Assembly (NCBI RefSeq): GCF_021653975.1
Contig: NZ_JAJKFK010000012.1
Coordinates: 124,001-188,000 of the forward strand
Origin: Amycolatopsis sp. GM8
Lineage (GTDB): Bacteria; Actinomycetota; Actinomycetes; Mycobacteriales; Pseudonocardiaceae
Length of the DNA: 64,000 bases
Direction: 5' to 3'
Each line of letters starts with the position of its first letter. Position 1 is the first letter of the stretch. Shown one piece after another: positions 30,834 to 62,014 of this stretch. The position numbers were made by a program, and so were the translations under genes. Below the pieces are notes generated by a model, which saw nothing but the letters and a program-made list of their open reading frames with translations, was not told the origin of the DNA and made no database searches.

Positions 30834-32333
30834 GTGAAGCGTCTCGTGGCCCTCGCGGCGTCCGCACTGACCGTGGCTTCGATCGTGACGGCGGCGCCCG
30901 CCGTCGCGGCCGCGGAATCCATCACCTGGGGTCCGTGCACGGATCCGACCCTCGTCGCCGCCGGTGGCGAATGCGGTTACCTGTCCGTCCCGGTGGACTA
31001 CGACCACCCTGGCGGCAAGAAGATCCAGCTCGCCGTCGGCCGGGTCAAGCACAAGGTGCCCGACTCGCAGTACCAAGGTGTCATGCTCACCAATCCCGGT
31101 GGGCCCGGCGGTTCTGGTCTGTACCTCGCGGCGCGGGGCGGGAACCTGCCGAACCACGCCGGCGACGCCTACGACTGGATCGGCTTCGATCCGCGGGGTG
31201 TCGGCTCGAGCAAGCCCGCGCTCTCGTGTGATCCGCTGTACATGGACTACAACCGGCCGAACTACCTGCCGATCACGCCGAACCTGGAGCAAACTTGGCT
31301 CCAGCGCTCGAAATCCTATGCGGATGCGTGCGCGCAGAAGAACGATCCGGCGTTGTTGCAGCACATGAAGACCGTCGACACCGTCAAGGACATGGACTCG
31401 ATCCGCGCGGCGCTCGGCGTCCAGCAGGCCAGTTTCTATGGATACTCCTACGGCACCTATCTCGGGCAGGTGTACGGCACGCTGTTCCCGAACCGGGTGC
31501 GGCGCATGGTTCTCGACAGCAATGTGGACCCGCGTTATGTTTTTTATCAAGCTAATCTGAACCAGGATCTCGGTTTCGATCGCAATATCCAGATCTGGTC
31601 CGACTGGGTCGCCAAATACGATTCGGTTTACCATCTGGGTACTACTGGTACCGCCGTGAAGCATTTGTTCGACGAGCAACTGGCAAAGCTTTCGTTCCAG
31701 CCGGCGGGCGGCGTGATCGGGCCGGACGAATGGCTCGACGTTTTCCTGCAGGCTTCGTACTATCAGCTACGGTGGACGACGCTCGGCGACGCCTTCTCGA
31801 AGTTCGTCAACAATGGTGACTGGCAGACGATGAAGTCACTGTTCGAGTCTTTCGGCGGCCGAGGCGACGACAATGGGTTCGCGGTATATTTGGCGGTGCA
31901 GTGCACCGATGTACAGTGGCCGACGAACTGGAACCAGTGGCGTTTCGACAACTGGCGCACGTTCGAGCAGGCGCCATACTTCACCTGGATGAACGCGTGG
32001 TACAACGCGCCCTGCATATACTGGCCGGCGAAGGCGGGCAAGCCGGTGAACGTCAATGGCAGCAAGGTGCACAATGTGCTGCTGATCGACGAAACCCTTG
32101 ACGCCCCAACACCTTACGAAGGCAGCCTCGAAGTCCGGAAACGCTTCCCCGGTGCGGTCCTCATCGCCGAGCCGGGCGGTACCAGCCACGCAATCACCCC
32201 ACGCGGCAACGCCTGCGTGGACGACAAGATCGCGGATTACCTACTCACCGGAAACCTCCCCGCACGAAAACCGGGAAACAAGGCAGACGTCCTATGTGAC
32301 CCATTGCCACAACCGGTGCCGAAGGCGCCGTAA
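30834..32333 (+). CDS. Secreted S33-family tripeptidyl aminopeptidase-like protein
   Basis: A 499-residue alpha/beta hydrolase. The signal peptide (KRLVALAASALTVASIVTAAPAVAA) is followed by mature protein from about 28. LTNPGGPGGSGLYL forms the oxyanion hole, DWIGFDPRGVGSSKP precedes the nucleophile elbow FYGYSYGTYLGQVYG with Ser205; D423 in IDETLDAPTPYEG and H452 in GGTSHAI complete the triad. It resembles Streptomyces SlpD/SlpE and Tap peptidases that release N-terminal tripeptides. The stretch 31500-31990 uses more A/T-ending codons than its neighbours. A palindromic repeat element starts 29 bases after the stop. Confidence 0.9.
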   Translation: MKRLVALAASALTVASIVTAAPAVAAAESITWGPCTDPTLVAAGGECGYLSVPVDYDHPGGKKIQLAVGRVKHKVPDSQYQGVMLTNPGGPGGSGLYLAARGGNLPNHAGDAYDWIGFDPRGVGSSKPALSCDPLYMDYNRPNYLPITPNLEQTWLQRSKSYADACAQKNDPALLQHMKTVDTVKDMDSIRAALGVQQASFYGYSYGTYLGQVYGTLFPNRVRRMVLDSNVDPRYVFYQANLNQDLGFDRNIQIWSDWVAKYDSVYHLGTTGTAVKHLFDEQLAKLSFQPAGGVIGPDEWLDVFLQASYYQLRWTTLGDAFSKFVNNGDWQTMKSLFESFGGRGDDNGFAVYLAVQCTDVQWPTNWNQWRFDNWRTFEQAPYFTWMNAWYNAPCIYWPAKAGKPVNVNGSKVHNVLLIDETLDAPTPYEGSLEVRKRFPGAVLIAEPGGTSHAITPRGNACVDDKIADYLLTGNLPARKPGNKADVLCDPLPQPVPKAP

Positions 32334-32362: not shown

Positions 32363-32518
32363 GAGTTGGGTGGTCATCCCGTCGCCTGAAACAGGAACGA
32401 TCACTTTTCGTCAGGGCCGCAACATCCCTGCACGGCGTGCAGCCGAGAACACAAAGCTTGCGGCCCTGAGGAAAAGTGATATTCGTAAACCGCAGGCGAC
32501 GGGATGACCACCCAACTC
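32363..32518 (+). repeat. Interspersed palindromic element, copy 1, arm module
   Basis: Perfect inverted arms of 26 bases at 32363-32388 and 32493-32518 enclose further pairing: the segment ending GTCAGGGCCGCAA near 32422 pairs with TTGCGGCCCTGAGG near 32459. The loop between about 32423 and 32457 is variable. The same module occurs at 50102-50255 and, inverted, at 61860-62004. It could fold into a long hairpin of about 156 bases in RNA or single-stranded DNA. It has no ORF. Confidence 0.9.
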
Positions 32519-32838
32519 AACCACCCACCCAAGGTGAGATCCCCTGGGCCCCCTCATCCCGGAGCCAGCCCGCCGGCGAGGCATCTTTTTCTTTTGTCTT
32601 TGACTTTTGGGTCTTTCGGGTGCCCTGCCGGGCTGTGTGGGAACCGGGCGCAAGGCGCCCTCGACCCAGCGTGGGCCCTCCCCCGCCCCGATCTTTTAGT
32701 GTTCGCGGATGGAGGAGTTCGTCAAGGCGGGAAAGAGTACCTTGACGAACTCCTCCATCCGCAAGGGCGGCTTGGGATCGGGGTGGGGGAGGGAGTGGGC
32801 GGTGTTGGTGGCTGGGTTGTGGTGCCGGGTGCCGGTTG
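32519..32838 (+). repeat. Interspersed element, copy 1, spacer and second hairpin
   Basis: After the arm module comes a conserved spacer (GGGCCCCCTCATCCCGGAGC and CCCGCCGGCGAGGCATCTTT), shared with copy 3 and, diverged, with copy 2. Then follows a nested hairpin: outer arms 32678-32693 and 32776-32791 (one G-T pair), inner perfect 23-base arms 32705-32727 and 32740-32762, 12-base loop CGGGAAAGAGTA. Similarity to copy 2 runs to about 32838. No gene is supported in 32334-32892; short ORFs here are chance. Confidence 0.88.
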
Positions 32839-48214: not shown

Positions 48215-49024
48215 TCAGAAGTAGAAGCCGAACGGGAGGTCGTCCTCCGGGCCGTGGTCACCACGCCGGAGGGCGACCTCCCTTGCCAATGCCTGCGCCA
48301 GCGCGGCGAGCGCCGTGAGCGAGCGCGAATTGCCCACTCCGGCCGTCTCCGCGAACAACGCCGCATGCGCGTGCTCCACCAGCGGGGACGCCGGATTGTC
48401 TGTCAGGGCAACGACTTGCACGCCGTGCTCGCGGGCGTACTCGGCGGTGCGGACCGTGTCGGCCGCGTAGCGCCGGACGGAGACCGCGACCAGCACACCG
48501 GACAGTTCACGGACTTCGTCGGGCAGTGAATCGCCGAGCCGGCGCGCGTGCAGCCGGCGGGACAGCAGGTCCGCGATCGGCCGGCTTTCGCGCAACCCGA
48601 GGACGTGCACCGTGTCGGCGTTGGCGAGCAAGGCGACGGCGTGCAGCCAGGTCGTGCGATCGAGCCGGGTGAACGTGCGTGCCAGATTGGTCTGTTCCTG
48701 TTCGAGGATCGCGGAAAGCGTGCCGCCCGGCGGTGGGTGACCGTTGTTGTCCGCGCGCCGGGCGACTTGTGCTTGTTCGGCGAGCCAGCTCCGGCACAGC
48801 TCCATGATGGCCGGATACCCTGACAGGCCAAGGGAATTCGCGAACCGCGCGACGGACGACTCGGGGACTTCGGCGAGCCGGGCGGCGTCGGAGATGCCAC
48901 GGTGGGCGGTGCCCTCCGGGTCGGCCAGCACCAGATGCGCGATCCGCAGCCGCCCCGCGGCCAGTTTCGGCAATCGGCTGCGGAGAAGTTCGGTCAGCTC
49001 CTGATAACTGCCCGGTGGGGTCAC
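48215..49024 (-). CDS. MurR/RpiR-family transcriptional regulator
   Basis: A 269-residue regulator. The N-terminal HTH of the RpiR type has RIAHLVLADPEG, then SDAARLAEVPESSVARFANSLGLSGYPAIMEL. The SIS domain (about 120-250) has ADTVHVLGLRESRPIADLLSRRL and GVLVAVSVRRYAADTVRTAEYAREHGVQVVALTDNPASPL, which bind phosphosugars in the family. The GTG start overlaps the alcohol dehydrogenase stop by 4 bases, so both are in one operon and the regulator may act on it. It is convergent with the sugar dehydrogenase gene, one base between stops. Confidence 0.9.
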   Translation of the reverse strand: MTPPGSYQELTELLRSRLPKLAAGRLRIAHLVLADPEGTAHRGISDAARLAEVPESSVARFANSLGLSGYPAIMELCRSWLAEQAQVARRADNNGHPPPGGTLSAILEQEQTNLARTFTRLDRTTWLHAVALLANADTVHVLGLRESRPIADLLSRRLHARRLGDSLPDEVRELSGVLVAVSVRRYAADTVRTAEYAREHGVQVVALTDNPASPLVEHAHAALFAETAGVGNSRSLTALAALAQALAREVALRRGDHGPEDDLPFGFYF

Positions 49025-50064
49025 GGTATCGGCAGCTCCACCACCGTGACGCCGGCCCGTGCCGGTACCGGTTCGTCCATTTCGGACAGTGCGATGGGTG
49101 CTTCGTCGAGCCCGATGCGGCGGCCGATCAGGCGGGCAAGGTCCATTCCGGACCGGGCGACGAACTCCAGCATCGCCGGGTACTCGTGGGCCTGGAGGCC
49201 GTGGCTGCCCAGGATCCGGAGTTCGTCGGCGATGACCCGGTGCATCGGGATCGGTGGTACACCTTGTTCGGGCGGCATCAACCCGACCTGCACGTGCCGC
49301 CCGCGTTTGCGCAGGCTCGCGACGGACGACGCGCAGGTCACGGGCAGGCCGACGCAGTCGACGGACAGGTGCGCGCCACCGCCGGTCAGCTCGCGGACCT
49401 CCTCGACGGGTTCGGTGCTGTGCACAATAGCCTCGGCACCGAGCCGCTTCGCCACCGTGAGCGCGTCGGGCGAGAGGTCCACTGCGACGACCCTCGCGCC
49501 GGCCGCGACCGCGAGCATGATCGCGGACATGCCCGCGCCGCCGCAGCCGTACACCGCGACCCACTCGCCGGCGCGCACCTCGCCCTGCCGCGACACAGCG
49601 CGGTACGCGGTGCCGAACCGGCACCCGAGCGCGGCGGCGGTCACCGAGTCGAGGCTGTCGGGAAGCGGCACGAGGTTCACGTCGGCGTGGTCCAATGCGA
49701 CGTACTCCGCGAACGAACCCCAGCCGGTGAATCCGGGCTGCGACTGGAAATCACAGATCTGCTGATTGCCGGTCGCACATTGCGGGCAGACCCCACAAGC
49801 ACAGACGAACGGAACCGTCACCCGCTCCCCGACGCGATGCCGCTGAACGAGAGGCCCGACGGCCATTATCCGTCCGGCGAGCTCATGCCCAGGTACGTGC
49901 GGAAGCTTGACGTCGGCGTCATGCCCGCGCCAGGCATGCCAATCACTACGGCACACCCCGGTCGCCTCGACCGCGACCACCACCCCATCCGGCGCAGGCA
50001 CCGGATCCGCAACCTCCACGACCTGCGGAACCACACCGAACTCGGAGAACAAGACAGCACGCAC
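49021..50064 (-). CDS. Zinc-dependent medium-chain alcohol dehydrogenase
   Basis: A 347-residue MDR enzyme. Catalytic zinc ligands are C38 (GVCRSDWHAW), H60 with E61 (PHVPGHELAG) and the Cys in AAALGCRFGTAYRA. Structural zinc ligands are C90, C93, C96 and C104 (CACGVCPQCATGNQQIC). The Rossmann fold has VYGCGGAGMSAI and VVAVDLSPDALTVA, the Asp favouring NAD. It resembles alcohol dehydrogenases acting on small alcohols. The GTG at 50064 follows TATCGT by 6 bases; no Shine-Dalgarno sequence. It is coupled to the RpiR regulator. Confidence 0.92.
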   Translation of the reverse strand: MRAVLFSEFGVVPQVVEVADPVPAPDGVVVAVEATGVCRSDWHAWRGHDADVKLPHVPGHELAGRIMAVGPLVQRHRVGERVTVPFVCACGVCPQCATGNQQICDFQSQPGFTGWGSFAEYVALDHADVNLVPLPDSLDSVTAAALGCRFGTAYRAVSRQGEVRAGEWVAVYGCGGAGMSAIMLAVAAGARVVAVDLSPDALTVAKRLGAEAIVHSTEPVEEVRELTGGGAHLSVDCVGLPVTCASSVASLRKRGRHVQVGLMPPEQGVPPIPMHRVIADELRILGSHGLQAHEYPAMLEFVARSGMDLARLIGRRIGLDEAPIALSEMDEPVPARAGVTVVELPIP

Positions 50065-50076
50065 CCAACCACGATA
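50065..50076 (-). promoter_or_regulatory. -10 element, leaderless start of the alcohol dehydrogenase gene
   Basis: On the minus strand TATCGT (50076-50071) is 6 bases before the GTG. It lies 25 bases from the end of repeat copy 2. Confidence 0.45.
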
Positions 50077-50101
50077 CGGGTAAAAATGCCGACACAAGTG
50101 T

Positions 50102-50255
50102 GAGTTGGGTGGTCATCCCGTCGCCTGAAACAGGCACGATCACTTTTCGTCAGGGCCGCAACCTGCGCTGGGTCCGGCGGCCGAAAGACCAAAGCTTGCG
50201 GCCCTGAGGAAAAGTGATACTCGAAACCGCAGGCGACGGGATGACCACCCAACTC
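50102..50255 (+). repeat. Interspersed palindromic element, copy 2, arm module
   Basis: Perfect 26-base arms at 50102-50127 and 50230-50255, identical to those of copy 1, with the same inner pairing (GTCAGGGCCGCAA with TTGCGGCCCTGAGG). The loop around 50162-50197 is unlike copy 1. Orientation is the same as copy 1. Confidence 0.9.
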
Positions 50256-50562
50256 AACCACCCAAGGTGAGATCCCTTTGGGCCCGGCCATCCTGGAGCC
50301 TGCCCGCCGGCGAGGCAATCTTTTGATCTTTTGCCTTTTGCTTTCGGCAAGTGCCCTGCCGGGCTCGGGGAACCGGGCGCGGAGCGCCCTCGTCCCAGCG
50401 TCGGCCCTCCCCCGCCCCGATCGTTGAGTGTTCGCGGATGGGGGAGTTCGTCAAGGCGGGAAAGAGTACCTTGACGAACTCCCCCATCCGCAAGGGCGGC
50501 TTGGGATCGGGGCGGGGGAGGGAGTGGGCGGTGTTGGGGGTTGGGTTGTGTTGCCGTGTGCG
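50256..50562 (+). repeat. Interspersed element, copy 2, spacer and second hairpin
   Basis: Diverged copy of 32519-32838. The outer arms 50407-50422 and 50505-50520 (16 bases) and inner arms 50434-50456 and 50469-50491 (23 bases) are both perfect. Compared with copy 1, the inner stem has GGGGGAG/CTCCCCC for GGAGGAG/CTCCTCC, a change on both sides that keeps pairing. The 12-base loop CGGGAAAGAGTA is unchanged. It ends 22 bases beyond the LLM stop codon. The 50065-50584 gap holds no gene. Confidence 0.88.
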
Positions 50563-61080: not shown

Positions 61081-61749
61081 GTGATCGAGTGTGAGGTCTG
61101 GTGGGCGCGGCCCTTGCCCGTGGAGACACGGCATCTGGATCTGCTGGACGAGCCCGAACGGGGGCGGTTCGAGGCATACCGGCGCGAGATCGACCGCAGG
61201 CGTTTCCTGACCGGGCGGGTGCTGGCAAAGACCTTGCTCGGTGCGCGGCGGGGCGTCGCGCCAGGCGATATCCGGTTCGACGCGACTTGCGAGGACTGCG
61301 GTAAACCCCATGGCAAACCGAAGCTGCCCGGTGTCGAATTCTCGATCTCGCATTCCGGCGAGCGTGTCGGCCTCGCGGTGACGACAGTGCCGGTCGGACT
61401 GGATGTCGAGGCGGACACCAGGCGTGCCGAGGACAGCCTGATCGAGTACGCGCTGAACGAGACCGAACAGGCCGCGCTGCGGGGGTTGGGTGCGGACGAG
61501 CGTGCAAGCGCTTTCTTCCAGTACTGGAGCCGGAAAGAGGCGCTGATGAAGGCGACGGGCCGTGGCCTGAAGATCCCGCTGCAAAGCATCACCCTCGACG
61601 GCGCCCGATTGGCCGCGTCGGCCGATGCGGCACTGAATCCTGAAGCGACCCACCTGGCGGACCTCAACCCCGGCGAGGGCTACCGCGCCGCGATCGCGTT
61701 CCTGACGACAGAGCCGGTGACGATCACCGAAAAGCCCTGGGAGATTTAG
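61081..61749 (+). CDS. Sfp-type 4'-phosphopantetheinyl transferase
   Basis: A 222-residue PPTase that adds the phosphopantetheine arm to carrier proteins of fatty acid, polyketide or nonribosomal peptide assembly lines. RFEAYRREIDRRRFLTGRVLAKTLLG and EFSISHSGERVGLAV are the substrate-binding part; GLDVEADTRR gives the metal ligands D and E; WSRKEALMKATGRGLKIPLQ the W-x-x-K-E-A motif. The GTG is leaderless. The first 9 residues of a longer reading are not conserved. It is convergent with isochorismate synthase, with repeat copy 3 between them. Confidence 0.92.
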   Translation: MIECEVWWARPLPVETRHLDLLDEPERGRFEAYRREIDRRRFLTGRVLAKTLLGARRGVAPGDIRFDATCEDCGKPHGKPKLPGVEFSISHSGERVGLAVTTVPVGLDVEADTRRAEDSLIEYALNETEQAALRGLGADERASAFFQYWSRKEALMKATGRGLKIPLQSITLDGARLAASADAALNPEATHLADLNPGEGYRAAIAFLTTEPVTITEKPWEI

Positions 61750-61782: not shown

Positions 61783-62008
61783 AAAAGATGCCTCGCCGGC
61801 GGGCTGGCTCCGGGATGAGGGGGCCCAGGGGATCTTGCGTTTGGGTGGGTGGTCGGGGTGGGTTGTCATCCCGTCGCCTGCGGTCTGTGAATATCACTTT
61901 GAGTCAGCCGCGCAAGGTTTGTGCTGTCGGGCGGCGGTTGTGTTGTAGGTTGCGCGCCTGCCTCAAAGTGATGGTTCCGGTTTCAGGCGACGGGATGACA
62001 ACCCAAGC
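61783..62008 (-). repeat. Interspersed palindromic element, copy 3 (inverted)
   Basis: Arms at 61860-61880 and 61984-62004 (21 bases) are perfect inverted repeats. Compared with copies 1 and 2, one stem pair is T-A instead of G-C (GGGTTGTCATC / GATGACAACCC against GGGTGGTCATC / GATGACCACCC), changed on both sides. 61783-61840 is the reverse complement of the conserved spacer of copy 1 (AAAGATGCCTCGCCGGCGGG). The second hairpin is absent. It fills the 265-base gap between the convergent PPTase and isochorismate synthase genes and ends 10 bases beyond the latter's stop codon. Confidence 0.88.
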
Positions 62009-62014
62009 CCGGAC

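Follow-up and report, generated by a model that had tools for sequence, protein, structure and literature searches.

The window, a 64 kb stretch of the genome of Amycolatopsis sp. GM8, contains three copies of a palindromic element. The first follows a gene for a TAP-like hydrolase and opens with a long hairpin, hp1 (32363..32518, plus strand), consisting of an outer helix of 26 bp, an inner helix of ~23 bp and a loop. Downstream lie a conserved tail (~32519-32625), which is U-rich at its end and contains the motif F′ (CATCCCGGAGCCAG, 32555..32568, plus strand), a near-copy of the 5′ arm core, and a second long hairpin, hp2 (32676..32793), placed on the minus strand, where the hp2 family prefers G.U pairs. 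Copy 2 has the same parts as copy 1, with hp1 at 50102..50255 (plus strand), F′ at 50289..50302 (plus strand) and hp2 at 50405..50522 (minus strand, outer limits set by eye), and its hp1 side meets the start of a zinc alcohol dehydrogenase gene on the minus strand. Copy 3 is inverted and of the TTGGGTTGTCATCC subtype, with hp1 at 61855..62009 and F′ at 61804..61817, both on the minus strand; it consists of hp1 and tail only. It lies behind a gene for a chorismate-binding enzyme and faces a phosphopantetheinyl transferase gene, the stop codon of which (61747-61749) is 55 nt from the tail motif.

A first-pass annotation of this DNA had reported palindromes at all three positions, and we located them there in the window sequence; the arm lengths of 26, 26 and ~21 bases and the second inner stem are likewise seen in copies 1-3. 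The annotation took the palindrome as the limit of the element and overlooked the tail, hp2, the orientation and the gene context of copy 2. The conserved tail follows in copies 1-3 and the second hairpin in copies 1 and 2. Nor are the loops unrelated, as had been proposed: ahead of the inner stem's right arm copy 1 reads CAGCCGAGAACACAAAGC and copy 2 CGGCCGAAAGACCAAAGC, and most copies in the genome are similar here. A position after a stop codon had been assigned to all three copies and does not hold for copy 2, where the stop belongs to an ORF with no Pfam match (49015-50103, plus strand) and the real gene is the zinc alcohol dehydrogenase, facing with its start.

The full element measures ~430 nt and comprises hp1 (~155 nt, two stacked helices), the conserved tail and often hp2. 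The tail lies 3′ of the right arm and carries a motif of the type CATCC.GGAGCC.GCCCG(T)CCGGCGAGG(A)C followed by the U-rich stretch. Folding of the copy 1 region gave a z score of -9.6, and a 132-nt piece with its hp2 (118 nt) folds at -96.9 kcal/mol (z -10.4). The tail alone folds no better than shuffles (159/200 fold as well).

Copy number and base pairing

A genome search identified 35 distinct copies of hp1 in the 8.16-Mb source genome with E values from 1.6e-76 to 2.5e-22, and a search with the arm core returned 35 forward and 35 reverse matches, one each per copy. Among 74 copies from 14 genomes, 96.9% of the cells in the hp1 helices are paired compared with at most 47.2% in any slid control, and 20 of the 49 hp1 pairs show changes on both sides. 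These include the replacement of G-C by T-A that had first been noted in a single copy, which we find at column pair 10/151 as G-C in 68/74 and T-A in 6/74 copies. Thirteen outer pairs never vary across the 74 copies, so the sequence of hp1 is constrained as well as its pairing, and core columns 13-23 are also invariant. A chance repeat is excluded by the 35 copies with low E values, the paired arm cores and the strong covariation. The proposal of a selected structure, made from the three copies in the window, is thereby upheld, as further copies exist and stem changes that preserve pairing far outnumber those that disrupt it. Copies with an arm spacing < 100 were left out of later comparisons, including the orthologue test described below.

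Distribution

In a DNA search of 61 genomes hp1 was identified in 15, the source included, all of them within the genus (19 genus genomes). A covariance model extended this to 22 of 60 family genomes and 17 of 46 genera, own genus included, with 1-6 matches in most other genomes and 10 to 16 in two genomes of one genus, counts in which one palindrome may match on both strands. Of 35 loci inspected in other genera, 33 possess the core TCCCGTCG(A)CCTG together with the tail motif; L304 does not show both clearly, and at L342 the position read was probably not the right one. Of 101 genomes sampled from the order, 4 gave matches, all Pseudonocardiaceae, and the tail pattern met only 7 single chance-like matches besides the source genome in 296 genomes of the phylum. 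Judged from sequence comparison, this is a real structured RNA element of Pseudonocardiaceae, multiplied in Amycolatopsis, with related forms in other genera of the family and none outside it among the sampled genomes.

In most of the loci L306-L315 (genomes G030 and G093) the element is followed by arrays of ~50-60-nt repeats (CGCGCCCCCGCTCTGAAGG...CCTCGAAAAC) that by eye have a motif in common with its loop. Elsewhere in other genera, L321, L298, L300 and L303 lie near RepSA, TIR, AbiV and SLFN_AlbA genes, which suggests that copies there are carried on integrative elements or defence islands. Integration beside tRNA genes in these genera was rejected, ARAGORN tRNAs occurring in only 1 of 28 loci.

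Strand bias of G.U pairs

Each G.T mismatch on one strand of a DNA palindrome is an A.C mismatch on the other, and without selection on RNA the two should be equally common. We took as plus the strand on which the tail lies downstream of hp1, the left gene being on the hp1 side and the right gene on the hp2 side, and counted each mismatch as a distinct combination of pair, type and genome in 133 copies from 14 genomes, events that are not phylogenetically independent. On the plus strand hp1 has 41 G.U and 10 A.C (p 1.5e-5). In hp2, found in 82 of the 133 copies, there are 2 G.U and 27 A.C (p 1.6e-6), equivalent to G.U on the minus strand, and the opposite bias of the two hairpins gives a Fisher value of 7.6e-11. 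Outside the genus, with L304 and L342 excluded, hp1 has 54 G.U and 2 A.C (p 4e-14) in 33 copies of balanced base composition. The G.U excess in hp1 runs against the local base skew because its unpaired plus-strand bases are rich in A (.27) and poor in T (.10), which favours A.C; the hp2 bias likewise opposes the skew of its surroundings (T.19, A.09 on the plus strand). Other mismatches were 63 purine-purine and 8 pyrimidine-pyrimidine in hp1, with 13 and 15 in hp2.

The strand-biased G.U argues for strand-specific selection at the RNA level, acting on hp1 in the left transcript, which is well supported, and more tentatively on hp2 in the right. It is reasonably supported that hp2, where present, would form an RNA hairpin of the opposite transcript from the right-hand gene. 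It has long been asked whether the interspersed palindromic repeats of bacteria are under selection as RNA or are only mobile DNA; in this element the ratio of G.U to A.C indicates the strand under selection, and its two hairpins point opposite ways.

The element might instead act as DNA, forming a cruciform or binding a protein in chromosome organisation or recombination, with correction of one arm by the other keeping the pairing. The invariance of core columns 13-23 would fit such a role, as would the near-perfect long stems of hp2 and the several changes from one Watson-Crick pair to another without a G.U step. Selection on DNA alone, however, predicts equal G.U and A.C, while hp1 and hp2 show strong biases in opposing directions, which disfavours a DNA-only structure as the sole constraint, and we consider this explanation very unlikely. 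Among the options that the first-pass annotation had offered for the structure, RNA is favoured over cruciform DNA by the strand-biased G.U, and a non-autonomous mobile origin is possible, presence varying between species.

Gene context

Gene calls were made with a simple script trained on 16 ORFs of the window. Both neighbours were resolved nearby for 76 of 133 copies, giving 54 convergent, 21 co-directional and 1 divergent arrangement; the remaining 57 lacked a gene call on at least one side, and the same place in several species was counted separately. Control gaps of at least 50 nt in 464 kb of the same genome comprised 25 convergent, 79 co-directional and 60 divergent cases of 164, a difference with p 5e-17 for convergent against the rest. 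The hp1 side faces a stop codon in 93 copies and a start codon in 16, the other 24 being unresolved or far, and the distance from stop codon to hp1 has a median of 29 nt (quartiles 22-38, n=93). A first tally of the 35 copies of the source genome, later replaced, had given 20 stop/stop, 8 mixed and 1 start/start with one side uncalled in 6. No transposase family was found among 33 distinct neighbouring ORFs (27 by Pfam, 10 by NCBIfam, 4 shared), many of them without any match.

The last 30 codons of genes flanking copies in the source genome show a third-base A frequency of 0.18-0.19 on both sides (19 genes each; for example 32240-32333 in the window), compared with 0.065-0.072 in 262 control gene ends. 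In other species the excess is not tied to occupancy and is highest in A. pithecellobii, and the idea that the element causes A-rich gene ends was discarded on this ground.

Concerted evolution and occupancy

We surveyed the 3′ ends of 18 genes beside copies of the source genome in six relatives, a total of 80 downstream regions. By script, 19 of these places are occupied (3 with one arm only), 2 hold remnants, 2 hold other repeats and 57 are without the element, some of the last having a different right-hand gene. At site L002 genome G006 retains tail and hp2 with hp1 missing, and in G010 and G017, which lack the element there, a plain terminator-like hairpin is visible by eye behind the same left gene. 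In A. pithecellobii, at L218 and L219 (sites L025 and L026), ~22-nt tandem repeats (GCGAGTTGAACGTTC...) replace the element behind the same left genes.

Orthologous copies do not resemble each other more than other copies of the same genomes do (24 pairs, mean difference -0.003, 12/24 positive, Wilcoxon 0.91), in a test that extends an earlier version with 17 pairs and includes three site labels assigned manually. Similarity is 0.80-0.95 within a genome and 0.76 between non-orthologous copies of different genomes. Copies within each genome evidently evolve in concert; since copies at the same place are not more alike, either they convert one another or places are refilled.

Patchy occupancy of this kind, with 57 of 80 orthologous places empty, and arm-core counts ranging from ~0 to 41 among genomes of the genus are also what would be expected of a REP- or MITE-like non-autonomous mobile element, the structure of which serves its own mobilisation and for which gene ends are tolerated landing sites. 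Like MITEs the element has long inverted repeats at its ends (26-bp arms) and no ORF, and the accessory-type neighbours in other genera (RepSA, AbiV, TIR, SLFN_AlbA) point the same way. We met no longer, transposase-bearing version, however: all 35 arm pairs of the source genome, to which this search was confined, are intact at a spacing of 117-120 bp. The strong placement rule behind stop codons and the selection on transcript RNA also speak against mobility as the purpose of the structure, which we regard as possible though doubtful. Aligned by eye, places without the element are too diverged, or have other right-hand neighbours, to display a target duplication.

The second hairpin

The hp2 core was found in 82 of 133 copies; some flanks stop at contig ends and other copies, such as copy 3, are without it. 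Its stems are long and near-perfect, and a script distinguished two classes in the source genome, A with 10 copies and B with 13. Copies with hp1 97% alike may have different hp2 classes, and the parts are therefore exchangeable separately. Solo hp2 copies occur at C1:887466 and C5:89961, and a tail with hp2 and no hp1 at C3:161539.

Degenerate repeats of ~21-24 nt, of the type GTGTTTGCCCGCTGCGCGGGC, lie after hp2 to the right of several class B copies of the source genome (L008, L018, L021). At its loci L003, L013 and L027, near contig ends, the hp2 loops are by eye interrupted by sequence which we take to resemble the start of an IS3-type element. In genome G002 a contig end lies a few hundred bases from hp1 at L278, L279, L282 and L283, 4 of its 6 regions. 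Short-read assemblies may break at hp2 and its repeats, so that copy numbers may be underestimates.

A proposed role at 3′ ends

Covariation measured against slid controls, the strand bias of G.U, the convergent context, the terminator-like hairpin seen at L002 in two species that lack the element, and concerted evolution together lead us to favour a repeated, oriented 3′-end RNA element, with a probability of roughly one half. As described above, hp1 and its tail mostly lie ~29 nt behind a stop codon, in most resolved cases between convergent genes, with hp1 selected in the left transcript; under this proposal the full element would present two 3′ hairpins facing each other, hp2 belonging to the transcript of the right-hand gene. 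Both transcripts would thus acquire a structured end that may stop or protect them and limit antisense read-through, and the copies may be homogenised in each genome by recombination between them or replaced again and again at unchanged positions. We infer a role in ending transcripts or protecting their 3′ ends from the position and structure of the element. Against it, copy 1 has no canonical terminator of stem and U-run by consensus scan (by eye a weak GCC-GGCGA-GGC stem precedes AUCUUUU in the tail); the tail alone folds no better than shuffles; an hp2 core was recovered from only 82 of 133 copies; some copies come after an independent terminator-like hairpin, as seen by eye at L025 of the source genome and its orthologues; and copy 2 faces a start codon. 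If the proposal is true, one exchangeable 3′-end element is common to dozens of gene ends in each genome, many in convergent pairs; collision and antisense control of convergent genes then becomes testable, and the element offers candidate end parts for antibiotic-producing actinomycetes.

Possible pairing of three strands within hp1 and tail

The 5′ arm core (F), the 3′ arm (R) and the tail motif F′ were all found in 164 of 166 copies, the other two being left out of what follows. F′ is F with the central TC replaced by GA in 76/164, has one further change in 74/164 and differs more in 14/164. A helix F′:R is possible with two central tandem G.A mismatches, and in G061 (Kutzneria viridogrisea) and G098 a TT centre in F′ can form Watson-Crick or G.U pairs with R. 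Riboswitches and attenuators have two mutually exclusive helices that share a strand; here F:R and F′:R would both be possible. When pieces were folded without F, R paired with F′ in the minimum-energy structure of 5/5 tail-containing pieces, partially in L322; piece L320 is without the tail and so stands outside this count.

The element could accordingly be read as a three-strand RNA switch in which R pairs with F, or with F′ if F is occupied, so that the 3′UTR would respond to translation, a protein or another RNA. Besides these folds and the retention of all three motifs, with F′ in most copies F with a GA centre or one change away from this, such a reading draws on coordinated changes: one class has an extra base in both F and F′, and a G-to-C change common to F and F′ in L341 is accompanied by the matching change in R. 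F:R is however the longer helix and the ground state. A change common to F and F′ in L319, and likewise in L335, has no counterpart in R (U.G in one copy, U.U in the other), so that F may be coupled to F′ and not to R. In the 7 copies of G006 F′ has diverged and makes a poor partner for R, most cores are identical so that few independent changes are informative, and many changes in F′ are C to T and could stem from local base bias. Shuffles of copy 1 fold as well in 18 of 200 cases, with 0, 1, 3 and 2 of 200 for the other four pieces. We judge the switch unlikely. A wider proposal combines such family-wide 3′UTR switches, with two exclusive helices of which one has a tandem G.A core, with their multiplication to dozens of gene ends in one genus, where they would be joined face to face with a second hairpin for the opposite transcript; one cassette, uniform per genome, would then set the 3′ ends of two colliding transcripts. 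This combination we hold to be rather unlikely.

Comparison with known elements

Rfam 15 gave 0 matches at gathering scores in the window, and a search of 13 related loci at E 0.5 returned only three tRNAs, all in L320, and six matches below threshold, most of which were to animal miRNA models. We found no description of the element in the open-access literature searched, which is no proof of absence. Integron attC sites have outer boxes in the order RYYYAAC ... GTTRRRY and occur with an integrase; an attC site was rejected, the box order of copy 1 being reversed (GTTGGGT ... ACCCAAC). ERIC, BOX, NEMIS and bcr are repeated structured intergenic elements of ~100-250 nt, and in these general features the present element resembles them.

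In terminators of Bacillus cereus G.U is described as the commonest intermediate between stem pairs (PMC5381666). Such intrinsic terminators, as presented there, share with our element hairpins behind stop codons and G.U intermediates, whereas its hairpins are far longer, repeated and homogenised. REPs are described as interspersed palindromes 20-40 bp long, one end of which bears an unpaired GTAG or CGTC tag, located mainly between convergent or co-directional genes near 3′ ends and thought to act as RNA; the main text of that account names neither actinobacteria nor Amycolatopsis (PMC3733652). The element shares the 3′-end location in convergent or co-directional gaps. It differs in that hp1 measures ~155 nt, the CGTC of hp1 falls in paired columns 18-21 inside the helix, and a tail follows, often together with a further hairpin that is read on the opposite strand.

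REPs are known to serve as targets of some IS elements (PMC1525189), which find a parallel here in an insert at one tail base in 19 places of A. sacchari and in the three hp2 loops of the source genome that appear interrupted by eye, although the target in our case is the tail or hp2 loop of the element. The A. sacchari (G007) insert is ~215-230 nt long, has ends like CCAATACCGCTAAGTT and in all 19 places joins the tail at one and the same base, with exact junctions; its junction was absent from seven other genomes searched. Spread of the element by copying of one insert-bearing copy in A. sacchari was dropped as an explanation, both orientations indicating repeated targeting. The insert looks like an insertion element targeting the repeat, and occurs in both orientations among the loci read (L053, L066, L199 and L204).
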